Source of the DNA: Sinotaia quadrata
Lineage: Eukaryota > Mollusca > Gastropoda > Architaenioglossa > Viviparidae
Direction: 5' to 3'
Assembly (NCBI GenBank): GCA_028829895.1
Contig: CM054181.1
Span: 32,024,857-32,088,856 of the forward strand
Length of the DNA: 64,000 nt
Part shown: piece after piece, positions 2,461 to 63,791 of the stretch
Numbering within the stretch: position 1 is the first letter of the stretch
How the letters are laid out: every line of letters begins with the position of its first letter
Translations under genes and position numbers: made by a program
The notes under the pieces: generated by a model
Seen by the model: only the letters and a program-made list of their open reading frames with translations
What the model was told of the DNA's origin: nothing
The model's database searches: none

Positions 2461-2544
2461 AAACCTGGAGAACAACGACATAGAGATGATAGAGAAATAC
2501 GCATTTCTGACATTGCCTGCGAGCATTAACTCCAGGGTGGACAT
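2461..2544 (+). CDS. Receptor exon: last leucine-rich repeat
   Basis: Acceptor ctgcag before 2461 and donor gtaagt after 2544 enclose 84 bases (phase 2 in, phase 2 out). The peptide contains ENNDIEMIEKYAFLTL, an LRR of the form LxxNxIxxIxxxAFxxL. The GPCR gene has an exon of the same length and phase at 63370-63453, about 64% identical by eye. It is followed in frame by the LRR C-terminal cap exon. LRR arrays form curved extracellular recognition surfaces; this is the last repeat before the cap. Confidence 0.8.
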
Positions 2545-8500: not shown

Positions 8501-11303
8501 AATGTATTCACATGTCGTTTTTATTACTAAATAATCCAGGTTCAAATATCATATACTTAATAGTGATTAAGAAATGTTCAATGTTCATTCTCTTTGCGTT
8601 TTATTGCTTTAATTCATTGTTACTCTGTCGCAGATCTTTATGCTACATGGGGAAAAATCTCATTCATCCATTCAGTCAATTCTCATTAAACATATTGATT
8701 CTAAATCCACGACATGTCTCACTAGATCTTTGAGATAACATAATAATAAATGGCTATGTGACTATTATATTTGCATAAGGGTCTCATATGAATCGGTCGC
8801 ACCCTGCCCAATTCAAATTCAAACAGACCTCAAACAGACCGCGTGCATCAAACTCAACCCCATCCCTTTATGCCTCCACTACCCACGTCTGACCATTGGA
8901 GAACATATCATCATTTCTTTCATTTATTATTTGTGCCTGTCATCACTACACAGCAAAACAGTTCTTTAATTCCAAACACTTTGCCAGCTATTTCATTATA
9001 CCTGGTTTACTATAACTAGTACGTATAAAGTCATATGTTTATATAAGTGAAGTTTATATAACGTCATTTAATCTATAATTTATTTTTCTTTAACATCATA
9101 ATCATCTCCATCATTTCTTCATCACCATGACGTAGCTTAAGAATCAAAATTAGGAAATGTGCAACATGAACGATTCTTTCTGCAGAACGTTTGCTACCGC
9201 ATTCATGGCAAAACTTTATCCAAGGGATGTCACAGTAACCCCTACTCGTGTCTTCTTAATGAACGTCAAAACAATCAGAGCTGCAGAACAAATCTAAATA
9301 ATCCAGCCTTGGGGCGCTGCTACTTTTGCTGCGCGGGTAATGGCTGTAACAATTTGAAAGGTGAGTGTCTGAACACTTCTGCAGAGGTGTTAAGAATGTA
9401 CTCTTGGGTGACATTGCAATAATGAATGAGACTAAATATTAGTAATTAGCTAATGATATACAACATTTACAAGTACCGATGTACTCTCGTGTGACATTAC
9501 AATAATGAATTAGACCAAATATTAGTAATTATCTAATGATATAAAACATCTGCAAGTACCGATGCACTCTCGTCTGACATTACAATAATGAATTAGACCA
9601 AATATTAGTAATTAGCTAATGATATAAAACATCTACAAGTACCGATGCAGAGTATGGACTATTGGTTAAATATGCTTATCTCCAACAGTTACGCTGATAT
9701 GCCAATTTGTCTCACGACCCCACTCAGTAATTTAATAAATTATACCGAGAAATATATTTTATATGATAGATACACAAATAAATATATAGATGGACAGACA
9801 ACAAGATGTAATCATTAGGCTGTCACAACAAGTTACGATAACAGACAAAGAAGTTACTTTGGACTAACAAATACGCGCGACTGGAACAATTAACAAACAT
9901 TTAAATTAAAAATTGTTTAACAATATTAAAAAAGAATAAGCAAATGCGTACATTCTGTACTATTTTCTCACCTTTAGGCAATTCAAACTAATGTGTTTTT
10001 TCTGTGAGTTTATTAATTCTAACTCAGAACTAGAGTTACTGTCCAAAAGCAAAACTTATTTTCTTATCTATTTTGTGCGGTGGGCAGCACTCAAATCATT
10101 CATCAGACAAACATCAAAGTAGGCAGCCAAAGCCCACATCATAGATTTTTACAATAAATATAGAAACTGAAAAACCTGAAACATAGGATATTGCAGAAAC
10201 TAAGCATACTGCAAATTACTACATTAATACATACTTAATTTGGCTTATGTAATAGCAACAAATAAAAGTTATACGTGTTTCAAATAGCATAACATTCCTA
10301 ATAAACCCTAACCATTCACACAATACACAGACGCCTTTACCTTATCTAGCCAAGGGTCTTCTTGTTTCTTTCACAAACAAAAGTTATAGGGACGAAATCA
10401 GACGTTAATGCTTGTCCGAAGACGTTTGCAATGAGTAAAGAATAGAATTTCAACCCTGGTATTTTTAGACTTGAAACCACGCCCATCTCTATCTAAACAT
10501 ACTATTTTACTCAATAAATGTAAGAATCCACCTAGAGCTAATTAATATTTATGACTTTCTCACATCATTAATTGAAGACTACAGATCTAACAGTTTAAGT
10601 CAACTGCGCTAGTGCTTAGATGCCTTGGAACTAGCGTTCATACAAACAATAACAACAGTCCTATCCTGCGGCTACTACTCTATGCTGTGTACTTTAACAG
10701 AGTTGTCTAAAACAAACCTCTGAATGCTGTGTACTTTAACAGAGTTGTCTAAAACAAACCTCTGAATGCTGTGTACTTTAACAGAGTTGTCTAAAACAAA
10801 CCTCTGAATGCTGTGTACTTTAACAGAGTTGTCTAAAACAAACCTCTGAATGCTGTGTACTTTAACAGAGTTGTCTAAAACAAACCTCTCTATGCTGTGT
10901 ACTTTAACAGAGTTGTCTAAAGCAAACCTCTCTATGCTGTGTACTTTAACAGAGTTGTCTAAAACAAACCTATCTATGCTGTGTACTTTAACAGAGTTGT
11001 CCAAAACAAACCTCTGAATGCTGTGTACTTTAACAGAGTTGTCCAAAACAAACATATCTCGGTTGTGTGCTTTAATGGGTGATGTCCAAATCAAACTTCT
11101 CTATGCTGTGTGCGTTAAGGGAACTGTTTAAAACAAACTTCTATATGTTGTGTACATTAATGGAGCTGGCCAAACCCAGGCATCGACTTTGCTTGAAGTG
11201 ACATTAACAACCTGCTCTCTGTGTTTCTTTTCGGTTTAGATGACGAGCGTGTGCATCCGATTATCATCTACATTCTTCATCTAATGTTTAAGTAGTAGGT
11301 TAA

Positions 11304-11354
<51 letters not shown>

Positions 11355-12039
11355 ATAGATAGATAGTTGCATATGGCGTATGTTTATTATTTGTAATCAT
11401 GGCTTTTACTTTTTTTGGTATTTATAAAGGAAGTATGCAGGAAAGAATAATGGAATAAATAAGGATTATCTCTAGTAGTGTTGTTCGTATTTCAACAGTA
11501 TTATGTCAATAATGCAAGTATAATTTGTAGTCCCTTTGATTTAACCTCTTAATTTTTTTTAAGTTGTCAGTGCAGGACACACTTGTACAAATGAAGTCCG
11601 TTGCGATCAGTTTTCCAGTTGCGTGTTCGGAAAATGTCAATGTCACGAATTTCACTACAACAACAATGGTCAGTGCGAACAGAGTAAGTGTCTGGAAAAC
11701 ATGAGCAAGAGAATTTAATGGAAAGGAGTGTTATACTAGCTTATTAAGGGATTGTAATCACAATTCATAATTAATTATTTTCGTTTACTTTCTTAGTCAC
11801 TGTTTTCTTGATTTATATCTAGATGTTATTTATTATGCATAACACGAATTTGCAGTCACTTAGAGAGAGGGTTTAAAAATTGAATCCTTACCGCTCTGTG
11901 TTTACTGGTGAAGAAGTTGGGTAAATGTAGATGTCATGAGAAAATCATGGAGCCAAAATTAATTTTTATTTCACAGTTTGCGCTAGACAGTTGTGGTCAA
12001 ATGGGAACAATCCAGTGACAAAAAGCGTGATTGTAAGAG

Positions 12040-15000: not shown

Positions 15001-16428
15001 TGGAGACATTTGTATGACTTACTGATAAACTATATGTCATCTCTATCAATACGTCTTGTATTGGCCATTGATGTAATGCATGAATCATTATCAAAGGTGT
15101 CTAATTCACAGACAAAGTTTGTTGACTTACTGATGATAAAGTATATTGTCTCTGTAAGTAGACTTCCAGATGACTTACTGATAAAATGCCTGATATCTCT
15201 ATCAATAAAACATATATAGCATTTAACGAAGTCTCTAAGAAATGCCGATATATCATGAAAAGGTTGTATGATTTATTTTATGCAATATATGTTATCTCTA
15301 TTAATACTTAATAGGTATATATCTTACTCAGAAGGCTGTTTGACTTACTAATGAAATACATTTTATCTCTGTCGTTAGAAATACGACCAGGAGAGACTTG
15401 TAACAGCAGCATTTCTGACGTCACCCAGTGTGTACAACACGCCGTATGTCGCTCTGATACCTGTGAATGCACTGAAATGTACTTTAACAATAACGGAAAA
15501 TGTGATATGCGTGAGAATTTTACTCATCATAATGTCAGTAATAAGTTATGTGATTAATAATTATTAATGAACTACATAAATTGGTTCAATCATGTTTGCA
15601 GTGAATAAAAATCACATGAACAATAGCATATAATTTGAATCCATGAATACTAGAATAAAAAATAATCTTAAAGGACCTACAAATATCAAATAAAGACATT
15701 CGAATTAATAATTCTTAAAATGCAATTTCGTATAGTGACTTGTGCAAAAGGAAATGTCATCTTCTCCATTCTTCTTACTCCATTTTTTTATTTTTTATTC
15801 TCCGTGTATAAAACACAGAGTTATATTAGGGAGTTTACGTGTGTTTGCCGTTTGTGTGCGTGTGTGTTCGTGTGTTTGAATGTTTGTGTATGATGTTTGT
15901 TTGGTGTGTATGCACATGATGACAAAAAATCTGAATAATTTTTAGTGAATAAATTAACAGGTCTGAAGGTTGGAGAATTTTGTAACGAGACTCTACTAAA
16001 TCTACAGAAGTGTGTAATCAACGCCGTCTGCCTGTCTGACACGTGTCAATGTAATGATGATCATTACAACAATGCTGGAGTATGTGACTTACGTAAGCAA
16101 GCCATCAACCTAATTTTCTGGATAATTCACTCGAATAGAAAAGTTATATGATGCATGTCATTGAGATATACTCGTTTTTCTCCGTATTACGTTCTGTGTA
16201 TTATGTTCTATGTATTATGTTCTCTGTATTATGTTCTCTGCATCAATAATGTTCTCAAATGATACATAAATGCAGTTTTTGTCACCTAGAAGACATTATC
16301 TACTAACTAATATTGCTTATTTTTTCTTACAGTAATTAACATCTTGAGATTAAAAACTACTATTTACCTTTATGACCCTTGATAATTATCTCTGAGAATA
16401 GAAAACTAATTATAAACAAATAACGATT

Positions 16429-16516
<88 letters not shown>

Positions 16517-19500
16517 CGGACTATTGGCGGATGGATGGATGGATGGATGGATGGATGGGTTAGAAGAACTTACACCTGCAATTTAGGCAATGAATAGGAA
16601 ATACAACTTTGCTGTTGTCATAATGTCAGAAATTTTAAATAATAATTTAAAACTATTTTAATTGGAATACTCGCTGACAATGGAAATAAGCAAGCCAAAC
16701 GCACAATGTGTAAAGCAGATAATCCACTTAAATAAAATAAAGCAATCACTGGAAAATCTTATTATGAATAACATATATAAGCGTCTTGTAATATGCCTAA
16801 AAATAATACATGGCTACTGATATATATATGTTACTAAACATACATAATTTAAAACAGTGAAGTAACAGAAACATAATTATTAATAACATATTATTATTTT
16901 TGAGTATCTTAAATTGTGAATTATATGAATGGAAATATTAGTTTGTCGTAATTTTTGTTAGGGCGTTTAAAAATTCTCTCTCTGTTCACTAGATTTAAGA
17001 AAAACGTAAATAATAAATACATTAACATAAAACTAATTATGACTTGAAATTCTAAATATTGTTTGCATTAAAACAGGTCTCAAGGCAGGTGTGCAGTGTA
17101 ACAACAACAACACAGATAGCCGGCAGTGTACACAACATGCCTTTTGCCACTCACGTGTGTGTGAATGTGACGGAAACCACTATAACAATGCTGGAGCCTG
17201 TGAATCACGTAAGCATATCAAAACTTTGCAAAAAGCTCTTTACTTCACTGCAGGGATTTGTAGAAACATATTTAGTTCAATGCAATTTTGAAAAGATATT
17301 TTACTTTAAAATCGACCTTGCAAAATTATCTTTAAAGGTCTTATTTCAGTACAGCGCTTGAAAAGATATTTTACTTTAAGATCGACCTTCAATAAATATT
17401 TCAGTACAGTGATTGTAAAGACATTTTTCTTTAAAGTCGACCTTGCAAAATTATCTTCAAAAATCTTATTTCAGTACAATTCTTGAAAAGACATGTTACT
17501 TTAAGACCGACCTTGCATAAATATCTTTAAACGTCTTCACTACTTGTAATGACATATCATATTCAATTCATGTTTGTAATAACATCTTCTATTCACTCTA
17601 TGACATCACTACCATCTTTTAGTTCCTTACATATCTGCAATAGCACTTGATTTAATTTCCTGCTTGAAATAACACATGTTTTAATTTCTTGCCTTCAATA
17701 GTACATTTGTATTTCAAGATAAGAGTAACAGTTATCGTTCCCTGCATGCTTATAATATCTTACATTCAATACACTGCAGGCCATATTTAATTCATTTCAG
17801 TGTTTATTCATTGTCGCCACCCCCATTCTCTCTGACGAGGGGAGGGTGGTGCCTTGTCAACGCCACGTAGGACTTGCATAAAGAGTATTACAAATCCGCA
17901 CACAGAATACCAAGATGGTTGTTTGGCTCGAATTTTATTCTGCGTGTAGGTTACGTATTGCCGACATGTTTGCATGTGTGCTTGCATACGGGTAAGGGTG
18001 AAGTGTAGACGACACAGACGACACAACGTATAACAACGACAACAACCACTCTTTCGAAACCATAGACAGGAGAAGCCTCAATGTCAGAGTATGAATTCAA
18101 ATTTATTGGTCTAAGGGTTTCCTCTCACACGTTTGTTAGTCAGTCAGCCATCTACACTCGCACCCATGGGTAAGGGGAAAGAAAGAAAGAAAAATGATAA
18201 ATGATGAAATAAAATCAAAGAAATACAAAATTCAATTTCTCCATGCAGTACTACTTCTAGAATTGCCTAAGCATTTTACAACGTAATGTTACAGTCATTA
18301 TTTCAAAGTTCTGGCACCACTGCTCTTATATCAAAGTTCAATAATTCAACAATAAACAAATGTTTATCCATTTTATTTAGAATAGTGCAAAAGTGTGCGA
18401 CTTACTTTGCAAACTGGAACTCAAACTACTGAATGATAAAATATTAACACATAACAAAATCAATGAATGAAGAATTTGTACGAATATTCCTGTGTACGCG
18501 TGTGACTTTATTGATGACAATAAGCCCAAGATCTAGAAAACTCGCTATGCTTCTGTAACATTTTCAACAATCCTAATAAACCAAGTCACAGCCCTACATA
18601 GGTACACTGTTTTCACATATATGGAAATCATGTGTGTATAAGATAAACAAATAACAGCACGATTTACACACATGCACGAACACTTACATGCCTCAATCAT
18701 GCAAAATGTATTCACGAATTCAGTGTACCTGCATATTCAGTATACATTTTCTTTCTTAATATGCACATGTAATACGTTAATGTATAAATGCATATTCATT
18801 ATGTGCTTTCTACAATTTCGAACAAAATCTTGAGATATCTATGATTTTAACTCATGAAAATTATTTCTTTAGAACTCTGCTTCCCCTTTCTTCTGAATGA
18901 CTCGACTATACTTATATAGAAAGGAACTGTTGAAATGTCGTTTATTGAGATTTCAGCATTTTTCATCGAATGACCTGAAAATAACTGTCCATCAACAGGA
19001 CATAAAATAAGAAAAAGAATTGAAAGAATGTGTCATTAAGTGTGGGAGGTTCCTTGGCTTATTGTTTAGAATAGCCACGTAACATGCACACAAACAAACA
19101 TATGCATACGAAAGTACATATACACACATACACACAGCGCACTAACCTGTAATACTGTCACATATGCATACAGTTTACAGACAGACAGAGATATACAAGC
19201 ATACAGCTTACCAATTAGGCACAAACACATGTTAATTTCATGTCTGTGTGTACATAATACTAAAGCTAGTCAAACTGAATCACACTGCACATCACATTAA
19301 TATTCCTTTTCATTCAACAGCTCTGTAGCCTGTAATCATTAACAATAAATAATTATGTAGTTCATGTTCGCTTTGTAAATGGCATCATTTCTCTGATCTA
19401 GATACAATCTTTACATATTGTATAAGACTAGATGTAGTATTATTTTCAACAACTACATCAATGTATAAAGTAATTTTACAAATTGTGTATTATGTTAATA

Positions 19501-22500
19501 GCAGTTATTTTACGTTAATAATTATTGTAATCAGCAGACCACAATATAATGTTTAAAATACTAGAAACGAAGTGACTAATCTGCAATGGCATTGCCCGGA
19601 CTAATTACAATCAGTAAAGGCATTAGCAAAGCTAATTACTATCAGTAATGGATAATATGTGTATGTCTTGAGAGTTCCTCGGTTTCTTTGTTGTACTGTG
19701 TCTGTTGCAACCAGGAAAGAGTCGGATTTGAAGTAAACAGTATCGGAGAATCGGTTTAGGCAGTAGTTTATTATATATTGAATGACTTTGTGTACATGTT
19801 GCAGTTATCAGAGCCGGCGAATCATGCAACGCAAACATCACAGAGGATCAGTGTGTCAAGGACGCTGTTTGCCGTACAGACAAGTGTGAATGTCGCAAGA
19901 ACTTGTATAACAGTCAAGGAGTATGCAGTTCACGTAAGCACGTCATTCTTCTTTGTCACTGGTAACATTTATGGAGTATGCAGTTCACGTAAGTACGTCA
20001 TTCTTCTTTGTCACTGGTAACATTTATGGAGTATGCAGTTCACGTAAGCACGTCATTCTTCTTTGTCACTGGTAACATTCATGGAGTATGCAGTTCACGT
20101 AAACACGTCACACTTCATTGTCACTGATTACATTACAATGAAGGGGAAAGTAAGCAATGGAAGCATGAATATTTATTGCAATGTCCAGCCCGGATGACTA
20201 ACAAACAATACTAAACCAAATTATTGACAGATAAATGACATTAGACAAGCAACACTAAATCATAATATTGACAGATAAATGACATTAGTCAAGCAAAACT
20301 TTATCAAATTATTGACAGATAAATGACATTAGTCAAGCAAAACTTTATCAAATTATTGACAGATAAATGACATTAGACAAGCAACACTAAATCAAAAAAT
20401 TGACAGATAATGACATCAGATGAGCAACACAAATTCAAAATATTGGCTGATAATGAGATTTGACAAACAACACTAAATCAAAATATTGACAGACATATGA
20501 CATTAGACAAACATTAAATCAAAATATTGACAGACATATTGCAAGAGTGTCAGTTTTACCAAAAAAGATGAAGATTGAAGAAGAATTAAATGAAAGAATT
20601 TAAAATAATTGCCGGGTAAATTATGTTAGGTCTTAAAACTGAAATAAATTTCGCATGTCAACAGCTCTCAGTGCCGGGTTATCCTGTGACAACAACAACA
20701 CAGATGTCAATCAGTGCGTTCACAACGCTTCATGTCAGTCAGGAACGTGTACATGTCACGACAGTCATTATAACCAGCAAGGAAACTGTCAACCACGTAA
20801 GCATTACATTTGATGACGTAATGTCAGCAATACAGACATGGTTGTCGCGCTGTACTGGGATGACGTGGAACTAATGTATTATACCAAATATTATTTCGTT
20901 AACAGACCAATAAATTCTTAAATAAATGTGCGTCAGAATAATACGTACAAAATAGTCCACAGCGCAAGTCATAACTTGTTCACATATTACATAAAAATAG
21001 GTCATCAGAACATCTTATTTCAAAGAAATCAAACTAAAGTTAAGTATCAACATTAACCCAGGAGGTCTCACTCTATATCTACAGTTATAACATTATTTAA
21101 TGTCTTCAAGAACACAGCAGCTTGTCGGACAGCTAAATATAAAAAGTAAAAATTATATACATCTTTCTGTCGTGTACTTATACAATAATTATGTTACTGT
21201 TGTATAGATACACTATTTTACTTTTGGACATACACAATAGTTTACTGTTGCATAGACACAATACTTTAATGTTTTATAGATACAATATTTTACTGTTGTA
21301 TAGACAAAATATTTTGCTGTTGTATAGTCAAACTATTTTACTGTTGTATAAACACACTATTTTACTGTTATGTAGACACACTATTTTACTGTTATGTAGA
21401 CACAATAATTTATTGTTGTACACACAAAATGCTCACTTTGGCTTAAACGCGTGCATAAATCAAATTCAGTTCATAACCAGTTTAAAATATTTCTAACACC
21501 CACAAATCAGTATAAAGAGACATATTTAACTAGTTTAATTTTACATTTCTCAACGGAATACATGTTTTTTTTTCTCCAAAGGCTATTTTCATTTTGATCA
21601 TAACCACTTCTATTAGTTACTCCTCACATCTGCCCATCGAACCCACATAACAAATAGAAAAACAAATGGTACAACTTCTTCATCAGTACTTTGAAATTAA
21701 AACTGCTCCTTGTTGCGATGAAACTATCCTTACGCATCTGACTGAAGGCTTTTCCTATAAAGAAATATTCCAAACTGTTCTTTGCTGCTAAGAAACTGTC
21801 CTGAGACACTTGACTGAATTCCGATGATGAAATAGTTTAAACTGTTCTGACACAAGTGATGACTTAATTCCTATGATGAAATAGTCAATATGATTGTGTT
21901 TCACTAAGAGTCATCGATAATGTCGACAACGTTAGACACTGTCGATCTTCATTTTCCTCATATAAGTTATTGAAATGACAGCTTTTTGCCTTCTTACTTC
22001 TACAGGTCTAGGTGCGGGTCATAACTGCAACATGTCGATCCCTGACCAAAATCAGTGTGTTGAAAACGCCTTGTGTAATTCAGCTGGGTGCACGTGTACT
22101 GACGCCTACTATGCATCTAAAGGCGTTTGTCACACACGTAGGTTATAGTTTAGGCCGGACACGTAGGCTTCAGCACTGATTTATTATTGCAGTTATTTAA
22201 TATAGTTTTGACTGGATACTTTAACGTGGATTATTATTTATTAATTATTATAAATTATATTTCTTATTTTGTTCATATATCTTTTATCATTTAGTAGTAA
22301 TTTGACATTTCTCTGACTTTTGTCTTCGTATGCTTAACAATTTATGTTTTCCTTTTTCCTTTCGAGAGTACGCCCATTGGTTAAAACATGGGTACTTCTA
22401 AAACATTTTCATCTAGAGAACAAGTGCCTTCTCGGCCTCTTTAAACATAGGTAGTGCCTAGTTAGTTTCCGCATATGACTTAGACTTATATAGGTTAACA

Positions 22501-22959: not shown

Positions 22960-25900
22960 CAGCTGTTGTGTCGACATATTAAATTGTTAGCCGTAAATCC
23001 GTTATCTTAATTGCTTTATACACAACAAAAATCATAACAGATATCATTCATTTACTATATGCAATAAATTACCTTACATTGTCAATATACATAGAAACAT
23101 AAGCAACATGTTTGCAGAACTTTATTGACATTTGAGTAATTGAGTAAATGAGTAGCTTTAGTCCTAATCTAATTATTACGGAATCAGTTTATTTTAAAGT
23201 GGAAGGAGGTTTCCTTCTCAACACATTAATTCTAAGTATTATAAAGATGATGATTCTGTCTCTACTTAACACATTTCTTGAAGATATTCTAGAGAGGATG
23301 ATTATGTCACTTCTTAACACACCACTTATAAATATTCTTTAGAGATGACTGTCACATCCAGTGATAGCACATGATTTTTAAGTGAGATTGTTACGTAGCA
23401 GTTTTAACTTTATCATTGATGACAAACATTTTTATTTTCATTGTTAATTCCTGGAATTGACCAAATATTGCTGCATCCATTCTGTATAGCATTTCCTTAA
23501 TCCGAAGAACCCAATTGTGATTTCGTCCAAATGTTTGACATCTTACAGTTTATCTAGACTGCAACCAATCTGTTTCAATACTTTTAGTTAATACTGAATA
23601 TTATTTAGGTATGATAACAGAGGAAATCGATCTTTAATAAAAAATGAATTTGTCAGATGCAGTTCATACCGCTTAAAAAGAAAGTGGCACATTGTCAAAA
23701 ATTTGTTAGCCGCAAACCTGACTCTTCCAAGTAATAAGTAGAATATGTTGTACCTATACTTCTAATATAGAGAAGCATGAGTGGTAATATCTCTCAAACA
23801 TATCTCTAACACGTAGAATTGCACCACTGAAAGAAAATTAGGAACTTCTGAGTAAATTTAATTGTAGCCATAAGCATGCAACCTTAACCCTTTAAAAGTT
23901 ATGTTACCCTTAAATGTCATTTAAGTTTTAAGTCATTAAAAAAACACAGGTTACAAAGACATAGACAAAAGATAAATATTTTGGATTCTCCGTTAGTGAT
24001 TACTATTGGCTTAGTTGAAATTGCTAACATCATTTATTTTGTTTGTGTTTTTTTCTTCCCCGAAAGTGACAGTAGTATTAAATCCTGTATAATACATGCA
24101 CTAGTAGTTCTAACAACCAATGATATAATTTAATGACGTGTTTTTTGTAGTGCCTCCTTTTGGCAAACATTCTCATTTATAAAAACGGAGCATAGATGGC
24201 AGTATAAAAAAATATATAGTTTTGTAGAGAAAAAAGAAACGTTTGTCAAACAAAATTATTTTAAGCGATGAACTCGTACCATTAATTATCTATAGTACGT
24301 TTGTCAAACAAAGTTATTTTAAGCGATGAACTCGTACCATTAATTATCTATAGTACGTTTGTCAAACAAAATTATTTTAAGCGATGAACTCGTACCATTA
24401 TCTATAGTACGTTTGTCAAACAAAATTATTTTAAGCGATGAACTCGTACCATTATCTATAGTACGTTTGTCAAACAAAATTATTTTAAGCGATGAACTCG
24501 TACCATTATCTATAGTACGTTCTTTAACATAATTAAAAACGGAAAAGCATTCATCGCATATATTAATCATTGTGCATTTATTAAAACAACGATAACAAGA
24601 TTTACAAATTATCTACGTGGAAAGATAACTCTCCCTTGTTCAAACACATCACTCTGATAGGAGTTATCAATAAGATTTATTACAAATTATTACATCAATC
24701 TCCCAACAATTTGTACCTATGTTAACAAGCTCAGTTCCTAATGGTCGTGCCATACACACAGAAAATGTATTTTGTGCTCTGCTCGATCTAAGGCTTTTCT
24801 TATTAAAACATTAGTATACGACTGAAACATGAAGGAGCAAACGTTAATGTATTTGTGCCTGATAATTTAAGGCTTAACTTTGTACAAGTAATAGAATATG
24901 AAAGAAACATGACAAGGAGGAAACATACAAATGCTTGTTCTTCTTTAAATCTAAGGCTTTTCTAATTTTAGAAGAAAATAGTATATCCTAGAAACATAGA
25001 AAGACGCAAAGATAAAATATGCTGGGTTTGTTAAGTGTAAGACTTTTCTTTTTTTAAAAAAATGGTTTGAGAGACAGAAAAGAACTAATGTAAAAATATC
25101 ATTACACTTCTGTCAACGTTATTTATTAAAGTTTTAGTCGGACAAAGTTCTGGAAACCATCTCATCATTCTTTTCTCATTACAGGGATCCACGCAAGACT
25201 TCCCTGTAACCAAGACAACTCTGATTTCAAACAGTGTGTTCAAGGCGCCATGTGCTTGAAAGGCGTGTGTGAATGTCAAAACACCTACAATAATGTGAAC
25301 GGCGCTTGTGTTCAGAGTCAGGGTACGCACGCACGTTTCCATACTTCCATAAAATCGTATATTAAATGTTTTTAATAATCGTCTCTTGCATGTAATTATA
25401 CTCAATTATATCGATAAATATAATCATCAAACATCGTGTAAGAGTAGGGAATTTTTGTCATGTAAAATCGCTCTGTGTTAAAATCCAGGTTGGTATATTT
25501 ACAGATTTTATCAGAGTTTCTACAGAAAATAGCTAGCAATTGTTGTCCCGAACATGTGAAAGCGAGAAAGGTAGTCTCCCTTGTATTTGTTAGACTAATA
25601 AATATAGTTTGATTACTTTTGCCAATATCTGGTGTGTAATATTTCCTTAGCACAGCTAACTAAAGATGATTCTCATAAGCATGTATATTTCTGTTTTTGT
25701 ATTCTTTAGGAACGTCCTCACCTGCAATAAACAAGACCATTATTGTATCAACAGTCGTCGGTGGTGTGGTCGCATTGATTATCATCTTCATCACCATTAC
25801 TAAAAATGGTAAAGTCGGTGAATGACTAAACTTAAAATGTTTTATATAAAGTAATGGTTTAATAAATAACTACTATTTTCTGGAAAGACATAATATTTAA

Positions 25901-30591: not shown

Positions 30592-33500
30592 ACATACTTA
30601 TATGTCTGTTGAATAGTTATTGCTATTTTTTCTTTCTTTCTTCTTTCTTTTATTTTGAGTTACTTTTTATTTTTAAAAATCTGAAATATCTCTATAGGTT
30701 CTGATGACAACAATAATTAATAATTATGCGTACGGCTAGTTTCATGTTCTTAGTTCAATATATTTCCAAGGAAATACAGTCTAAATTACAAAGTCCTTGA
30801 AGAATGACGTTTGAAATGGTATGGAGATAATCTGAGACCCTAGATTAAAACATTTAATGTGTTTAATGTGAACAAGATGTGCAGGCATCATATACAAACT
30901 ATTAGGAGTGAACAGTGAAAGTTTAATGCCTTGTATCACATGAACAGGACGTGCGAGCATCATGGAAAAGATATTAAGATAAATGTCCAAACTTAGTGTT
31001 TAGTTTCATATAAATAGCATCATGGGAAAGATATTAAGATAAATGTCCAAACTTAGTGTGTAGTTTCATATGAATAGCATCATGGAAAAGATATTAAGAT
31101 AAATGTCCAAACTTAGTGTGTAGTTTCATATAAATAGCATCATGGGAAAGATACTAAGATAAATGTCCAAACTTAGTGTTTAGTTTCATATAAATAGCAT
31201 GTAATACTGACAAATACAATTCATTAATAAATCTATGCTTTTGTTGATACACATTTTTTCCTATCCAATGGAACAACATTTTTATTTTAGCCACTATGCA
31301 ATTTTTGACTGAAGGACCAGGATTATTTTCCAGTAGTGTTAATGCAACTGGGTATCTTAACTCTGTGAAGTTATTTGATGAGAGAGTGTCCCACTTTCTT
31401 GGCAAAATTCATTAATTATTTAATGAGCCATTATGGTGCATCGGCAAAACAGTCAGACAGGGCATTTGCCTGAGGACAGTCAGACACCTCGAACCAATAC
31501 TGTTCCAGGATGGACTAATTATATTCACGTGGACTTCCAAGAAGGGTAATACCATGCCTGAGGTTACTTCACTGCTGGAGGAGCGCGGCATCAAGTTATC
31601 ATTGATTTAGCAGTATCTGAAAATTCCTCGACCAGCTCTACGTAACCTACATACAGGGAAGTCTGGACCCAACTTACGTACATGCAGTCAATTTAATAAG
31701 TTGTTTTGGATCATGCATAGAGCTGATCATGTGGCACCGGAAGTACATGAGAAGGGAAAAGACCCAGGTATGAGCAGCCCCGTGAAAGACAGAGATGACA
31801 ACAACTACATTTGAACTGTGACCTTCCATTATTTTTCTTTTTCTACACTTCTGCAATCTTCTACAACCAGTGCCAACACAGCACACACATTACCTGGTTG
31901 TTATCGTTTTTCTTCATGGCCGATTGTGTCATCTTTGCTTCGAGTACATCCAATTTAACTTTTGAAGGGTACTAAATAAAATCTCTGTACATAATCTAAA
32001 ATTCAATCTATTAGAAAAACATCAGTGCACATAAATTAAGTATTAGTAAGTAGGGCTATGTAGGACATATAAATTAAACTTAAAGTATAAACCATCATCT
32101 ATTCTTATTAAGTTATGGAGGATTAAATAGGTCTATGATTTGACTCTAATAATTTTGTACATTTTACTCGTAATTTGTATATTTCCTTGATTATGTAATT
32201 TTATAATTTGATGAATTTTACTTACTTCTCTTCTTAACTTTCTCTTATTTCATCATCCATTAATTTACAAATTATCTCTTTACCCCAGAGTGTATGTTTT
32301 CTTTTATTTACCGCACGAAAAAGTTAAATCATAATAATCGAAAACAAAGTACTATTAACTATTGTTGTTTTGAAGCTGTCCTGTATTATTTACATTCTCC
32401 ACTCCACGTACGACCTCGCATGCAAACACGTCAGCATACGTTACCCTTGCATGCATAATAAAAGAGCCAGACAAACATCCATAGTATTTGAGTGTCGGTC
32501 ACTGTGAAGAACAACCAACAGGTCCATACGTAGTTTTTGACAAATCACTAAGGGAGTGAATAAAGTTATGACAGTGGGACACGTGACGTAGACGATAGAG
32601 ATACGCTACAGCGACGTTTTCCTGTTTTAAGCCGTTAACACAGTAATTTCTAAATGCAATTTTAGTATTCAGATCTTATAAAAACATTTTATGTAAGTTA
32701 TCTGACTATCAATGAGCAATATATTTAATTATTTCATCATCTAACACTGTGTATAAGCAGTTAGTCTGACTTCTTACTGATGAATGAGACCTAAAACATC
32801 TATTGTCAATGAACAAAAGTACACGAACAAACAAAGGCAACATTATGATTGGAAAATAAATGAACATATCAATAAAGAAATAATCAGGATTAAATTAAGA
32901 GTTTTGAATATATAGAGACGTATAAATGTTTTATTTTAATCCCTTTCACTAAGTTTTCTTTTCTACTCTCTTTTCTCTTTTGCTTTGTTTTGTCTTGTAT
33001 TATTTATTTTATGCCTCTGTAAAACTGCTTCATACATTACACTAAATTCGCATTTCGTTTCGTTTCGTTTCGTTTCGTTTCCTTTCCTTTTCTTTCCTTT
33101 CTATTTTGTCTTGTTTTATTTCTCGTAAAAACTGTGAAGCAGATTCGCATATTTCACTAATTGTGTTTCCTTTCTTTAGTATCGAGATTAAATCAAGAGA
33201 GTCGACAGAATCAAGCCAATGAATATATTACTTTGATTAGCGAACAAAGCGACGTTCCAATACGCCATGCTGTCACCTCTACCTATGACCACATGCAATG
33301 TTTATCATCTTCCGGTCTGCAGCTGAAAACAGAGAACTCCGAATACTTCAACCTAGCATGCCCACAAGATGCCGCCTGCAGTATTCCTGACCTTTCGATT
33401 CCGACACTGATGGTTCGTAAACCTGAAAATACATATCACTGTATGAACTCGACATCTACAGAAAACTCTAATGAAGAATTACAAAGCTATCCGTATATGA

Positions 33501-34111
33501 CTGTCTCGTCACACGACTATCTACGTAACACAAATGTAGCCCACGGTAGTCGAGCGAGTTCAGACTACCTACAGCCTACACAAGTTTATTTGAGCGGTCG
33601 AGTGAATTCAGAATATCTACAGCCTAAACAAGTAGATTTGAGCGGTCGAGCAAGCCCACAATATCTACAGCCTAAACAAGTAGATTTGAGCGGTCGAGCA
33701 AGCCCACAATATCTACAGCCTAAACAAGTAGATTTGAGCGGTCGAGCGAGCCCACAATATCTACAGCCTAAACAAGTAGATTTCAGCGGTCGAGCGAGCC
33801 CACAATATCTACAGCCTAAACAAGTAGATTTCAGCGGTCGAGCGAGCCCACAATATCTACAGCCTAAACAAGTAAATTTGAGCGGTCAAGAAAGTCCAGA
33901 ATATCTACAGCCTAAACAAGTAGATTTGAGCTGTCAAGCGAGCCCACAATATCTACAGCCTAAACAAGTAGATTTCAGCGGTCGAGCAAGCCCACAATAT
34001 CTACAGCCTAAACAAGTAGATTTCAGCGGTCGAGAGAGTCCAGAATATCTACAGCCTAAACAAGTAGATTTGAGCGGTCGAGCGAGTCCAGAATATCTAC
34101 AGCCTATTTAA
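2461..34111 (+). CDS. Gene model: LRR-Ly6-EB(x8)-TM receptor with multi-phosphotyrosine docking tail (5' partial, 15 exons)
   Basis: Spliced model, exons listed individually below. Every exon has AG/GT borders and all phases agree, giving one 917-residue open frame from the first base of the window's first exon to TAA at 34109-34111. Order: last LRR (residues 1-27), LRR C-terminal cap (28-87), Ly6/uPAR-type domain (88-180), eight EB/EGF-like modules (181-525), transmembrane helix (about 532-554), cytoplasmic tail (about 555-917). The signal peptide and earlier LRRs must lie left of the window. The tail has no kinase motif; it has YxxM, YxN and twelve YxxP sites, so it probably recruits SH2 adaptors after phosphorylation by another kinase. 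I do not recognise a named orthologue. Exon structure is directly visible; the signalling role is inference. Confidence 0.82.
3013..3475 (+). repeat. Dispersed repeat family R1, copy 1 (3' part)
   Basis: Resembles 27640-28018, 28485-28945, 43590-43745 and 61435-61640. Landmarks are 'tgtagaaataatagtcta', 'ctcagcccattggc' and 'aggagtgccca'. It lies in the intron between the LRR and LRRCT exons of the plus gene. No coding capacity is seen; class unknown. Confidence 0.7.
4076..4254 (+). CDS. Receptor exon: LRR C-terminal cysteine cap (LRRCT)
   Basis: 179-base exon (phase 2 in, 1 out) between ttttcag and gtgaga. It encodes a cysteine cap: ICSCDLVSMNEWL, then LHGVRCAKF, then ELSCN, i.e. C-x-C...W...C...C as in LRRCT domains that close the hydrophobic end of an LRR stack. 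The GPCR gene has the equivalent exon at 62907-63088 (182 bases, same phases, about 40% identical by eye, sharing CSC, VSM, W, HG.RCA and SC). Confidence 0.88.
5540..5880 (+). repeat. Dispersed repeat family R2, copy 2
   Basis: Contains 'ggccagtactcggccattgg' and 'gacgtgcagatcatgatg', parallel to 1853-2110. It runs straight into the 44-bp tandem array at 5835-6205, so the array probably grew from the end of this element. Confidence 0.45.
5835..6205. repeat. 44-bp minisatellite, about 8 copies
   Basis: Unit contains 'cgctacattagcgttaatta' and 'caagaaatgaaatgcac'. In the intron before the first Ly6 exon of the plus gene. Confidence 0.9.
6688..6791 (+). CDS. Receptor exon: first half of Ly6/uPAR-type three-finger domain
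   Basis: 104-base exon (phase 1 in, 0 out) between ctctttcaag and a strong donor gtaagt. The peptide has four cysteines as MCAHC, STCD and LTC, the C-x2-C...C...C opening of Ly6/uPAR domains. It was found because the cap exon (phase 1) and the following cysteine-rich exon (phase 0) could not join directly; this exon repairs the frame exactly. Its counterpart in the GPCR gene is at 60519-60625. Confidence 0.82.
6792..9185. other. Intron, no recognisable element
   Basis: Unique-looking AT-rich intron between the two Ly6 exons of the plus gene. Short ORFs lack splice-compatible borders. Confidence 0.6.
9186..9360 (+). CDS. Receptor exon: second half of Ly6/uPAR-type domain
   Basis: 175-base exon (phase 0 in, 1 out) between ttctgcag and gtgagt. 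It holds eight cysteines and ends CYFCCAGNGCNN, the CC-x4-CN signature that closes three-finger domains. The whole domain has 12 cysteines, more than the usual 8-10. Spacing matches the GPCR copy at 59367-59559 almost residue for residue (KGC-x6-C-x10-C, then C-x2-CC-x4-CN). As a two-exon cassette the domain is phase 1-1, suited to exon shuffling. Confidence 0.88.
9410..9650. repeat. ~85-bp tandem repeat, about 3 copies
   Basis: Unit includes 'gtgacattacaataatgaat' and 'gcaagtaccgatg'. It begins 50 bp after the second Ly6 exon of the plus gene but does not include exon bases. Confidence 0.8.
10675..11165. repeat. 42-bp minisatellite, about 9 close and 3 degenerate copies
   Basis: Unit 'tgctgtgtactttaacagag' plus 'ttgtctaaaacaaacctctgaa'. 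Because 42 is a multiple of 3 the minus strand is open for 139 codons (repeating VLDNSVKVHSI), but nothing else supports a gene. Confidence 0.9.
11307..11350. repeat. (GA)n microsatellite
   Basis: Perfect GA run in the intron before EB module 1. Confidence 0.95.
11576..11683 (+). CDS. Receptor exon: EB/EGF-like module 1
   Basis: 108-base phase 1-1 exon. The acceptor that keeps frame is the second of two nearby AGs (tgcag, ending 11575); using the first (ending 11570) would shift frame. The peptide has six cysteines (HTCTNEVRC, SSCVFGKCQC, then NGQCE), the C...C...C-x4-C-x-C...C pattern of EB or short EGF-like modules. This module is the shortest of the eight, with a reduced first loop. Donor gtaagt. 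Confidence 0.85.
12043..12081. repeat. (CA)n microsatellite
   Basis: CA run in the intron between EB modules 1 and 2. Confidence 0.95.
12150..13060. other. GC-richer intronic segment, possible old mobile element
   Basis: Less AT-rich than its surroundings. It holds two near-perfect 75-bp tandem copies (12808-12957, with 'gaggcccagccgtctaccgg'). No transposase, reverse transcriptase or terminal repeats can be identified. Confidence 0.3.
13735..13940. repeat. 44-bp minisatellite, 4 copies
   Basis: Near-identical units of 'catgagtttctgcgtttgtc' plus 'tatgcataataaaatgtacat', preceded by a degenerate (GTAT)n stretch from about 13661. Confidence 0.9.
13941..14889. other. Intron, nothing recognised
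   Basis: AT-rich unique sequence upstream of the acceptor-side repeat array of EB module 2. Confidence 0.5.
14890..15378 (+). repeat. Degenerate tandem array ending in the EB module 2 acceptor
   Basis: Repeated 'gacttactgatgataa...tatctctatcaat' blocks at about 14895, 14964, 15020, 15123, 15172 and 15342. The last block is the polypyrimidine tract and acceptor (atctctgtcgttag) of the exon at 15379. Confidence 0.6.
15379..15510 (+). CDS. Receptor exon: EB/EGF-like module 2
   Basis: 132-base phase 1-1 exon between gtcgttag and gtgaga. Six cysteines: GETCNSS, TQCVQHAVC, DTCEC, NNNGKCD. An N-glycosylation sequon (NSS) directly follows the first cysteine, as in several sister modules. The intron just upstream is an array of degenerate copies of the acceptor-side sequence (14890-15378). 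Confidence 0.88.
15961..16092 (+). CDS. Receptor exon: EB/EGF-like module 3
   Basis: 132-base phase 1-1 exon starting after ttaacag, chosen because the start LKVGEFC then aligns with LKAGVQC of module 4. Six cysteines: EFCNET, QKCVINAVC, DTCQC, NAGVCD. Donor gtaagc, shared by most modules of this gene. The intron to module 2 is only 450 bp, so these two exons probably arose by local duplication. Confidence 0.88.
16431..16558. repeat. (GATA)n followed by (GGAT)n microsatellite
   Basis: About 85 bases of GATA, then GGAT, in the intron between EB modules 3 and 4. Confidence 0.95.
17077..17208 (+). CDS. Receptor exon: EB/EGF-like module 4
   Basis: 132-base phase 1-1 exon between aaaacag and gtaagc. 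Six cysteines: VQCNNNNT, RQCTQHAFC, RVCEC, NAGACE. Same length, phase and donor as modules 3, 6 and 7, marking a tandemly duplicated exon family. Confidence 0.88.
17270..17560. repeat. ~70-bp tandem repeat, about 4 copies
   Basis: Unit contains 'ttgaaaagatattttacttt' and 'cgaccttgcaaaattatct'. Just downstream of EB module 4; no exon bases included. Confidence 0.75.
17561..19804. other. Intron, no recognisable element
   Basis: Unique AT-rich intron between EB modules 4 and 5; contains a short T-rich degenerate repeat near 17560-17700 and nothing else identified. Confidence 0.5.
19805..19933 (+). CDS. Receptor exon: EB/EGF-like module 5
   Basis: 129-base phase 1-1 exon between gttgcag and gtaagc. 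Six cysteines: ESCNANIT, DQCVKDAVC, DKCEC, QGVCS. Its last 16 coding bases plus the donor are repeated three more times downstream every 55 bp (to 20130), so four near-identical donors compete. Only the first preserves the frame: read-through meets TAA after eleven further codons. Confidence 0.87.
19918..20130 (+). repeat. 55-bp array of exon end plus donor (EB module 5)
   Basis: Four units starting 19918, 19973, 20028 and 20083. Each contains ggagtatgcagttcac, the last 16 coding bases of the exon, followed by a GTAAG or GTAAA donor. The first unit is the real exon border. Confidence 0.9.
20180..20545. repeat. ~45-60-bp tandem repeat, about 7 copies
   Basis: Unit around 'attgacagataaatgacatt' and 'agacaagcaacactaaatc', between EB modules 5 and 6. 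Confidence 0.8.
20665..20796 (+). CDS. Receptor exon: EB/EGF-like module 6
   Basis: 132-base phase 1-1 exon between gtcaacag and gtaagc. Six cysteines: LSCDNNNT, NQCVHNASC, GTCTC, QGNCQ. The linker start LSAG resembles LKAG and LGAG of modules 4 and 7. Confidence 0.87.
21190..21430. repeat. ~30-bp degenerate tandem repeat
   Basis: Units of 'ttttactgttgtatagacac' between EB modules 6 and 7. Confidence 0.75.
22006..22137 (+). CDS. Receptor exon: EB/EGF-like module 7
   Basis: 132-base phase 1-1 exon between ttctacag and gtaggt. Six cysteines: HNCNMS, NQCVENALC, GCTC, KGVCH. A second AG at 22010-22011 would remove six bases and keep frame (NAGNAG-like variation); the outer one gives the standard 132-base length. 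Confidence 0.87.
22831..22953. repeat. (CT)n-(CA)n compound microsatellite
   Basis: CT run of about 38 bases followed by interrupted CA run. Confidence 0.95.
22954..24237. other. Intron, no recognisable element
   Basis: AT-rich sequence between EB modules 7 and 8; only weak internal similarity (23200-23340) is visible. Confidence 0.5.
24238..24525. repeat. ~55-bp minisatellite, about 5 copies
   Basis: Near-identical units of 'acgtttgtcaaacaaaatta' and 'ttttaagcgatgaactcgta', two lengths (with or without 'attaat'). Confidence 0.9.
24526..25184. other. Intron, nothing recognised
   Basis: AT-rich sequence before EB module 8, with a weak internal repeat around 'ctaaggcttttct' (24790, 24950). 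Confidence 0.5.
25185..25322 (+). CDS. Receptor exon: EB/EGF-like module 8 (membrane-proximal)
   Basis: 138-base phase 1-1 exon between cattacag and gtacgc. Six cysteines: LPCNQD, KQCVQGAMC, GVCEC, NGACV. This last module leads into a short stalk and the transmembrane exon. Confidence 0.86.
25710..25808 (+). CDS. Receptor exon: stalk and transmembrane helix
   Basis: 99-base phase 1-1 exon between ttctttag and gtaaag. It encodes a short stalk with a sequon (NKT), then an uninterrupted hydrophobic stretch IIVSTVVGGVVALIIIFITI followed by TKNG. The small-residue GG inside the helix could favour helix packing. The orientation, with the cysteine-rich side outside and a basic GGRK following inside, marks a type I membrane protein. 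Confidence 0.9.
26320..26576 (+). repeat. Dispersed repeat family R1, internally deleted copy
   Basis: Begins with 'actaattacaagtgatgag' as at 42555 and passes directly to 'ccttcaagcagaac...ctcagcata' as at 43165-43240, omitting the middle seen at 42700-43140. The 33-bp satellite and the hAT insertion follow it. Confidence 0.55.
26577..26708. repeat. 33-bp minisatellite, 4 copies, interrupted by the hAT element
   Basis: Units 'atagcatactataccatgat' plus 'acatcaaacgtgt'. The truncated next copy resumes at 27526 after the hAT element. Confidence 0.9.
26709..27525. mobile_element. Non-autonomous hAT-family DNA transposon
   Basis: 817-bp element with terminal inverted repeats CAGGGGTGCACAAACT (left) and CAGTGGTGCACAAACT (right, inverted), 15 of 16 matching, and an exact 8-bp target duplication gtgtatag (26701-26708 and 27526-27533). 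The 8-bp duplication and CAGNGGTG ends define hAT elements. Subterminal GC-rich CCGGCCC/GGGCC blocks contrast with the AT-rich host. It carries transposase remnants and sits in the intron between the transmembrane and juxtamembrane exons. It inserted in a 33-bp minisatellite unit. Confidence 0.9.
27054..27316 (+). pseudogene. Deleted hAT transposase remnant
   Basis: ATG at 27054 opens MAANRKRKVDKENRQFNDDW, like the start of ZBED/GTF2IRD2-type hAT transposases. About 40 bases later the other frame reads QAFSQMKLNKSNTCGQLTDD and onward to TGA at 27314-27316, the C-terminal hAT dimerisation region. The catalytic middle is missing and the two ends are in different frames, so no active transposase is made. 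Confidence 0.75.
27640..28945 (+). repeat. Dispersed repeat family R1, two adjacent copies
   Basis: 27640-28018 is a 3' part copy; 28040-28945 is a longer copy running from 'ccagttcattcaagtagaac' through 'tgtagaaataatagtcta' to 'aggcaaattt'. They occupy most of the intron between the hAT element and the juxtamembrane exon. The order of landmarks is the same as in 43145-43745. Confidence 0.65.
29002..29197 (+). repeat. Array of acceptor plus exon start (juxtamembrane exon)
   Basis: Units starting 29002, 29086 and 29151 share 'ctttttatcattttacatac' and 'tgtagctctgtgacaa'. The first includes a full decoy acceptor (ends 29049) and about 30 bases resembling the exon start; the second has lost the acceptor; the third is the real one. 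Confidence 0.88.
29198..29344 (+). CDS. Receptor exon: juxtamembrane cytoplasmic segment
   Basis: 147-base phase 1-1 exon between gactttgcag and gtacta. It begins GGRKLCCQVK, a basic juxtamembrane stretch with a CC pair that could be palmitoylated (inference), and ends near SIYDVIPGTP, whose tyrosine (codon 29317) fits a loose ITIM-like or SH2 site. The intron before it repeats the acceptor with the first coding bases: a decoy acceptor at 29048-29049 opens an in-frame GGRKHCC version that stops at TAG 29109-29111. Confidence 0.82.
29452..29925. repeat. Composite minisatellite, many copies
   Basis: Alternation of 'aataaaaatggatactatca' and 'cctacttacttcaagatact'. Several long open frames are products of the repeat. 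Confidence 0.92.
30388..30591. repeat. (GT)n and (CA)n microsatellites, inverted to each other
   Basis: GT run 30388-30434 and CA run 30515-30591, 80 bp apart; on one strand they could pair as a hairpin. Confidence 0.93.
30960..31205. repeat. 60-bp minisatellite, 4 copies
   Basis: Unit contains 'gaaaagatattaagataaat' and 'gtccaaacttagtgtgtagt'. Confidence 0.9.
31206..33054. other. Intron, no recognisable element
   Basis: Part of the intron before the terminal exon. A GC-richer patch at 31430-31620 might be an old mobile-element fragment but shows no family features. Confidence 0.4.
33055..33120. repeat. (CGTTT)n pentamer and pyrimidine-rich tract
   Basis: 'tttcgtttcgtttcgtttcg' then degenerate T/C-rich sequence up to about 33120, 60 bp before the terminal exon. 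Confidence 0.85.
33180..34111 (+). CDS. Receptor terminal exon: phosphotyrosine docking tail with 12 YLQP repeats
   Basis: Acceptor ttctttag; phase 1 entry; 932 bases to TAA at 34109-34111. The first part has tyrosines in SH2-site contexts: YITL (codon 33224), YDHM (33284), YFNL (33344), YHCM (33434), YPYM (33488) with YMTV (33494), and YLRN (33518). The second part is twelve copies of a 16-residue unit, consensus SGRASPQYLQPKQVDL, with tyrosine codons 48 bp apart from 33566 to 34094. Established knowledge: pYxxM binds PI3K p85, pYxN binds Grb2, pYxxP binds Crk/CrkL. No kinase, TIR, death or phosphatase domain is seen. The reading frame is intact through all repeats, unlike the decayed copies after the stop, which suggests selection on the coding part. 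Confidence 0.85.
33552..34108 (+). repeat. 48-bp coding repeat encoding the YLQP array
   Basis: Twelve units of 48 bp in one open frame; core 'caatatctacagcctaaaca' plus 'agtagatttgagcggtcgag'. Inner units are nearly identical at the DNA level, implying recent unequal exchange; outer ones differ. Confidence 0.95.
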
Positions 34112-34265
34112 GTAGGTTTGGGCAATCAAACTAGCACAAATTTACCCACACCCTATTCAAGTTGAATCGAACGGTCAAGCGCATCCAACTTTCCTACAGC
34201 CAACATAAGTAGATTTAAACTATCACGCGAGTCAAGATTACTTACAACCTAAACACGTGTCCCTC
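34109..34265 (+). repeat. Decayed YLQP-repeat copies after the stop codon
   Basis: Sequence after TAA still resembles the unit ('aagtaggtttgggcaatcaa', 'tacagccaacataagtagat', 'acttacaacctaaacac') but has stops and frame changes. In the array CAA follows CCTAAA; here it is CCTATTTAA, so the stop arose inside a repeat. Confidence 0.75.
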
Positions 34266-34530
34266 TAATTCAGGTTGCCTCAGCCTAATCACTGTGGCTT
34301 TAGGGGTGGGGTTAAGGAAGATGTTTTAAAAGACTTAAAACTTTAACCTGGCCAACACTCGTCCACTTACTCTTTAACAGTGCCATGTGTTACAAGGTAT
34401 TTGACAATTAAAAGATATTTTGACAATTAAAGGATATTTTGACAATTAAATGATATTTTAAATATGAACAATCACAAAATACTACTACTAGACCACTAAT
34501 CCCGTCGTGACATGACGATGAAACGAGGAA

Positions 34531-34536
34531 AATAAA
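34531..34536 (+). terminator. Candidate poly(A) signal AATAAA of the plus-strand receptor
   Basis: AATAAA lies 420 bp after the stop codon. It is the first exact hexamer I see downstream. Position is plausible for a 3' UTR; no transcript evidence is available. Confidence 0.45.

Positions 34537-38146: not shown

Positions 38147-63791
<25,645 letters not shown>

Follow-up and report, generated by a model that had tools for sequence, protein, structure and literature searches.

Receptors carrying arrays of YxxP sites are already known. In vertebrates, the scaffolding receptors DCBLD1 and DCBLD2 (ESDN) span the membrane once and carry eight and seven YxxP motifs, respectively, on the intracellular side; these are phosphorylated by Fyn and Abl and bound by the SH2 domain of CRKL, for which the YxxP tyrosines are required, as described in PMC6029619. 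The substrate domain of p130Cas (BCAR1) comprises 15 YxxP motifs within 306 disordered residues, in a pseudo-repeat that varies 2-9 residues before the tyrosine (PMC3983058). PMC5043372 describes five choanoflagellate transmembrane proteins (e.g. PTSG_05573 and PTSG_12436) in which YxxP recurs several times on the cytosolic side. One of them carries extracellular EGF-like repeats and three contain SH2-like domains; in a peptide assay, a Crk-type SH2 domain bound two peptides from PTSG_05573, both pYDVP. Finally, the amphioxus FrLRR is an invertebrate LRR receptor, perhaps exon-shuffled, with reported ties to phagocytosis and to Grb2, an adaptor with an SH2 domain (PMC10199209). Among the matches listed in a search of the open-licence PMC literature, neither the exact motif described below nor an invertebrate or molluscan YxxP-array receptor was found.

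In the window, i.e. the whole stretch of 64,000 nucleotides analysed here, positions 33180-34111 (+) are predicted to be the terminal exon of a type I receptor, whose ectodomain comprises LRR-like and Ly6-like parts and eight EB modules and which has one transmembrane (TM) helix. The reading that we prefer, and to which we give about an even chance, is that the tail encoded by this exon would form a two-part multivalent phosphotyrosine docking surface, composed of membrane-proximal YxxPhi sites and twelve YLQP(K) sites. This reading and the alternatives weighed below overlap, and our confidences in them need not add up to one. The underlying gene model was assembled by hand, with splice borders picked for fit and the 5' end outside the window or unfound: fourteen exons between 2461 and 34111 (+) join into one open frame of 872 residues, in which the phases chain throughout (Table 1). 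All fourteen are open and preceded by AG, and each is followed by GT except the last, which ends in a stop. The order of the domains is LRR-like, cap-like, Ly6-like, eight EB modules, one TM helix and the tail.

Table 1. Features of the putative receptor gene and of the region downstream of its stop codon (positions in the window).
Feature	Position	Strand	Remarks
LRR-like exon (NLENNDIEMIEKYAFLTL...)	2461..2544	+	AG/GT borders; phase 2 at both ends
LRR C-terminal-cap-like Cys exon	4076..4254	+	AG/GT borders; 41.5% identity to minus-strand paralogue, E 1.4e-14
Ly6-like domain, first half	6688..6791	+	splice borders; label from Cys pattern
Ly6-like domain, second half	9186..9360	+	33% identity to minus-strand paralogue, E 4e-10
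EB module 1	11564..11683	+	possible alternative acceptor at 11576
EB module 2	15379..15510	+	Pfam EB 20.3 bits singly (cut-off 24.3)
EB module 3	15961..16092	+	Pfam EB 17.9 bits singly, below cut-off 24.3
EB module 4	17077..17208	+	Pfam EB 14.9 bits singly, below cut-off 24.3
EB module 5	19805..19933	+	exon borders, aligned cysteines
EB module 6	20665..20796	+	exon borders, aligned cysteines
EB module 7	22006..22137	+	exon borders, aligned cysteines
EB module 8	25185..25322	+	Pfam EB 22.2 bits singly, below cut-off 24.3
Transmembrane exon (IIVSTVVGGVVALIIIFITIT)	25710..25808	+	phase 1-1, AG/GT borders; mean hydropathy 2.72 over 21 residues
Cytoplasmic terminal exon and stop	33180..34111	+	acceptor ctttctttag, phase 1, TAA 34109-34111
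Membrane-proximal tail	33182..33538	+	YITL, YDHM, YFNL, YHCM, YPYM, YMTV, YLRN
Array, twelve 16-codon units, one YLQP each	33539..34108	+	last unit cut by stop
About three decayed repeat units past stop	34112..34268	+	stops and frame shift; unit borders by eye
AATAAA, possible polyadenylation signal	34531..34536	+	420 bases past stop

The ectodomain was identified through its EB modules (PF01683): once joined, it scored 58.9 bits in six stretches against a cut-off of 24.3, while the four that were run one at a time, each in its correct frame, stayed below that cut-off (14.9-22.2 bits), and six cysteines and one glycine align in all eight modules. The LRR-like and cap-like labels are tentative assignments from sequence patterns, as is the Ly6-like label from a CCxxxxCN signature; Pfam gave no match for the cap-like exon and remained silent for the Ly6-like exons even at E 10, no match to a Ly6/uPAR profile being found there. 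Neither a kinase nor an SH3 domain was detected by Pfam in the tail, in the 562-residue model of ectodomain and TM helix, or in ten nearby ORFs; nothing of any kind rose above cut-off in the eight ORFs between the TM exon and 33180 or in the two after 34111, where short exons may still lie. A transposon-like fragment was recognized by eye at 26709-27540, inside the intron that follows the TM exon, and the three ORFs in it had no Pfam match.

Position 33180 is the first base past the acceptor (tcctttctttag), and, continuing the upstream reading frame, the exon contains 309 whole codons after a split codon. Translated from its first base it shows 26 stops, and the right frame begins with the split codon, as expected because phase-1 splicing predicts one. 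An open frame through a tandem array is not rare in this region: seven of 24 arrays, hand-picked out of 101 overlapping TRF rows in the window and including this one, were at least 98% open in some frame. The window as a whole is rich in tandem arrays, many of these rows having a 30-100 bp period. For the non-repeat part of the exon, on the other hand, only 4 of 5000 mononucleotide shuffles left the frame open. We take the terminal exon as coding because of this openness, the phases of the fourteen exons, the upstream EB match and the pattern at +3 of the tyrosines described below. An exon foreign to this receptor, or a dying gene whose tail is no longer made, could account for the 7.4-kb intron ahead of the exon and the decayed repeat units behind its stop, and would be compatible with a model joined by hand from borders picked to fit. 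We regard this as improbable, given that the fourteen exons selected all have an open frame, AG/GT borders and phases that match, that a possible AATAAA follows the stop, and that the proximal +3 pattern is far from that of shuffled peptides. ATTAAA also occurs at offsets 296, 315 and 334 past the stop. The sequence-only reading, which had placed twelve YLQP motifs, 16 residues apart, in the cytoplasmic exon of a single-pass receptor without a kinase of its own, was right about the motifs and the exact coordinates of an open, phase-correct exon; the TM exon with its chained phases supports the single-pass topology, and the kinase scan agrees with the third point.

On a charge-hydropathy plot the tail falls narrowly on the disordered side of the boundary (0.404 versus 0.417), and it contains 28 prolines in 309 residues. 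Relatives of the whole tail were sought with phmmer, and among the 7993 scored candidates sharing most words with it none reached E<=0.01, repeat words possibly having crowded out others; residues 1-125 yielded 20 candidates, none at E<=0.1. Four pattern matches in viral contigs and 40 in bacterial and archaeal genomes were not confirmed, and PDB sequences gave nothing at E<=1; these three nulls say little on conservation, because an animal tail is not expected in those collections. A Pfam Fibrinogen_BP match to the tail (26.7 bits, cut-off 50) was rejected as below cut-off and repeat-driven. A protein search with the whole model returned one match among 1740 candidates, the EB protein P0001 (732 aa; 30% identity over 39% of the query), which has the same Cys-rich EB module (PF01683) in many copies (14 stretches) but lacks the YLQP array.

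With DCBLD1/2 the gene shares a single TM helix, several intracellular YxxP motifs and, in the sequence scanned, the lack of a kinase match. It differs from them in the ectodomain, CUB/LCCL/discoidin in their case, whereas only EB was found here by Pfam in the exons located, and in the arrangement of the motifs, which in DCBLD1/2 are described as dispersed and conserved across vertebrates (PMC6029619), and here form an exact 16-residue tandem array. The likeness to p130Cas lies in the many spaced YxxP motifs (12 here) and in variation that clusters before the tyrosine in both; however, the Cas substrate domain is reported to have about 20% proline (PMC3983058), a higher content than in this tail, the Cas peptides given in PMC3514216 are mostly YDxP instead of YLQP, and it belongs to a scaffold protein that also contains an SH3, a serine-rich and a C-terminal Src-binding domain. 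Pfam matched no CAS-family SH3 domain in the tail or in the 562-residue model of ectodomain and TM helix (from 2461 onward), and no C-terminal FAT-like domain in the tail, whose frame ends at YLQPI. The CAS family consists of soluble cytosolic proteins, unlike this gene with its TM exon. The choanoflagellate proteins, as described in PMC5043372, are likewise transmembrane with cytosolic YxxP repeats, but they are not metazoan and the sites assayed were pYDVP, not pYLQP. FrLRR is comparable as an invertebrate LRR receptor tied to SH2 signalling, although its C-terminus is predicted to carry a site for a GPI anchor, and the abstract of PMC10199209 accordingly mentions no cytosolic tail of this kind. 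The gene would work like DCBLD1/2, the choanoflagellate proteins and p130Cas, yet it is a member of none of these families, because the exons found contain neither the SH3 and FAT domains of Cas nor the ectodomain of DCBLD. What distinguishes it is the exact tandem array, the motif YLQP and the LRR-like/Ly6-like/EB ectodomain. The DCBLD1/2 and choanoflagellate precedents had been overlooked in the sequence-only reading, as had the proximal YxxPhi block, the decayed units past the stop and the neutral substitution ratio in the array.

The strongest statistical indication of a signalling tail comes from the membrane-proximal block and not from the array. Six of its seven tyrosines are in YxxPhi context, a count reached by 5 of 20000 peptide shuffles in a test devised after the tail had been seen, and three of the seven are YxxM (10 of 20000 shuffles). 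Out of ten offsets tried, only +3 scored 6, with 4 for the runner-up. The number of tyrosines itself is ordinary (7 seen, 5.4 expected in shuffles, P ~0.26), leaving the +3 pattern as the only significant feature. YxxM sites belong to the PI3K class, and YxxPhi is also the preference of AP-2. The tail might then serve mainly endocytic or phagocytic sorting, its YxxPhi sites binding AP-2-type adaptors while the array sets length or clustering, an option suggested by the six YxxPhi sites. We consider it very unlikely, since three of these six are YxxM and the +3 residue of YLQP is proline instead of a bulky hydrophobic one, so that the array is not YxxPhi. Compared with the SH2 preferences of PMC3514216 (Table 3), YITL, YFNL and YMTV match ITK/RASA1-type rows, and YDHM fits PI3K1_N; the PI3K part of the preferred reading is weakened, because YHCM and YPYM match neither PI3K row. 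Our confidence in that reading is unchanged by this, as its central claim concerns the docking array.

The twelve YLQP sites are one amplified unit and not independent sites. TRF reports one 48-bp array at 33549-34120 with 11.9 copies, and YLQP is present in all twelve units at a constant spacing of 16 residues. Its flanks are nearly uniform, with S-P-(Q or E) at -3 to -1 in ten of the twelve units, L at +1 and Q at +2 in all, and K at +4 in ten, and the frame ends directly past YLQPI. Between units we counted 16 types of substitution, after setting aside 15 dissimilar bases at the start of unit 1 and the final 9 bases of unit 12, which contain the stop: 12 nonsynonymous and 4 synonymous versus 103 and 33 possible, which is neutral overall. 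Thirteen of the 16 sit before the tyrosine. None of the 12 nonsynonymous changes alters YLQP, where 24 of the 103 possibilities fall, a marginal depletion (P ~0.04 by our own arithmetic). The units past the stop are decayed, so a shorter array is tolerated; the last of them reads DYLQPKHVSL followed by a stop, in a shifted frame. Its YLQ carries three synonymous changes, a hint that the array formerly coded beyond the present stop. Taken together, the copy number looks loosely held, and the motif is perhaps held.

These observations bear on the possibility that the array is a neutral coding minisatellite which merely lengthens a disordered tail, only the proximal YxxPhi block signalling or sorting. 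The neutral ratio, the abundance of minisatellites in the window with the seven open ones counted above, and the decay of the array beyond a stop all speak for it. We nevertheless hold it to be rather unlikely, as YLQP is intact in every unit, and both unit 1, with one synonymous change in the motif, and the decayed last unit still spell it; moreover, the similar, non-repeat DYLRN just before the array suggests that the array grew from an existing tyrosine site.

Regarding the partner of the YLQP sites, 39 of the 42 rows of PMC3514216 Table 3, which lists SH2 preferences for mammalian peptides, were matched to all 20 tyrosines of the tail. All twelve YLQP sites fit the VAV1 pattern, pY-[V/E/L]-x-P, and none of them fits any other row compared, although this pattern of a mammalian domain is easy to match with its two constraints. 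The sites had previously been called Crk-type, and the array read as a Cas-like substrate domain linked to Crk, Rac and the control of the cytoskeleton or engulfment; spelled out, it would mainly recruit Crk/CrkL and then DOCK180/C3G and Rac/Rap. The resemblance of a spaced YxxP array to the p130Cas substrate domain stands, whereas the Crk-type label is not supported in that form: CRK and CRKL prefer D at -2, D at +1, V/L or another hydrophobic residue at +2, P at +3 and P (or P/R) at +4 (PMC3514216), and none of the twelve sites matches the full pattern of either, one of the five positions being met, namely the proline at +3 (12/12). With L at +1 and Q at +2 the sites are unlike pYDVP, and the flanking residues, as read from the predicted tail, do not fit the proposed partner. 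For FGFR1 pYELP, a site without D, PMC3514216 is inconsistent on Crk binding, giving 44 uM in its Table 2 and 380 nM in its text. Crk may still bind weakly and multivalently, because its SH2 domain is stated to require Leu or Pro at +3 (PMC3514216); multivalency can make up for weak single sites, as argued in PMC5043372, and DCBLD1/2 and, in a peptide assay, a choanoflagellate protein do pair YxxP with Crk-type SH2 domains. On balance we find recruitment mainly of Crk/CrkL unlikely. The N-terminal SH2 domain of PLC-gamma is absent from Table 3 of PMC3514216, which elsewhere lists PDGFRb pYIIPLP for it.

Here we infer the phosphorylation, the SH2 partner and the biological role of the tail. In the preferred docking-surface reading, clustering by ligand would allow Src- or Abl-family kinases, whose taste for YxxP is described in PMC6029619, to phosphorylate the array, which could then bind multiple molecules of an SH2 protein that recognizes pY-hydrophobic-x-P. 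On paper the best candidate is Vav; PLC-gamma may be considered by analogy, and Crk/CrkL is a possible partner for which the sites are off-consensus. The proximal YxxPhi sites, with their three YxxM, would suit PI3K p85 and other SH2 or sorting adaptors, and Vav together with PI3K may lead to local activation of Rac/Rho and control of the cytoskeleton. In this way the tail would probably assemble numerous signalling proteins simultaneously. DCBLD1/2 show that YxxP sites can serve a receptor that lacks a kinase. The valency of the array would derive from the 48-bp minisatellite, whose copy number may shift without breaking the frame. A bolder version, which we consider doubtful, is that this coding minisatellite sets the valency of the receptor, unequal exchange adding or removing whole 16-residue pYLQP units in frame and so acting as a heritable gain control, sensed by an SH2 protein of the Vav class and not by Crk; if true, individuals or species would have tails with differing numbers of docking sites.

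If the tail is made and phosphorylated, multivalent phosphotyrosine docking could be tested on it in an unusually clean natural case, with twelve near-identical sites at fixed spacing in a receptor without a kinase; it also illustrates a plausible route from a minisatellite to a signalling array. It has been proposed that pre-metazoan Crk orthologues answer transmembrane signals that are absent from metazoan cells (PMC5043372). In animals, DCBLD1/2 and this gene appear to be counterparts of such a layout.

An adhesion-GPCR-like gene with an LRR-like/cap-like/Ly6-like head was observed on the minus strand at 40258-63830. Two of its exons match 7tm_2 (53.7 and 32.7 bits, cut-off 20.6); its HRM match stays below cut-off (21.1 bits versus 26.2), and no GAIN match was found in the pieces scanned. 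The heads of the two convergent genes, at 2461-9360 (+) and 59365-63470 (-), are paralogous, with 62% identity for the LRR-like exon (over 37 residues, tblastn E 5.7e-9, searched in this window only), 41.5% for the cap-like and 33% for the Ly6-like part. The shared head is joined to different outputs, an EB array and tyrosine tail in one gene and an HRM-like and 7TM part in the other, which suggests an inverted duplication with exon shuffling.
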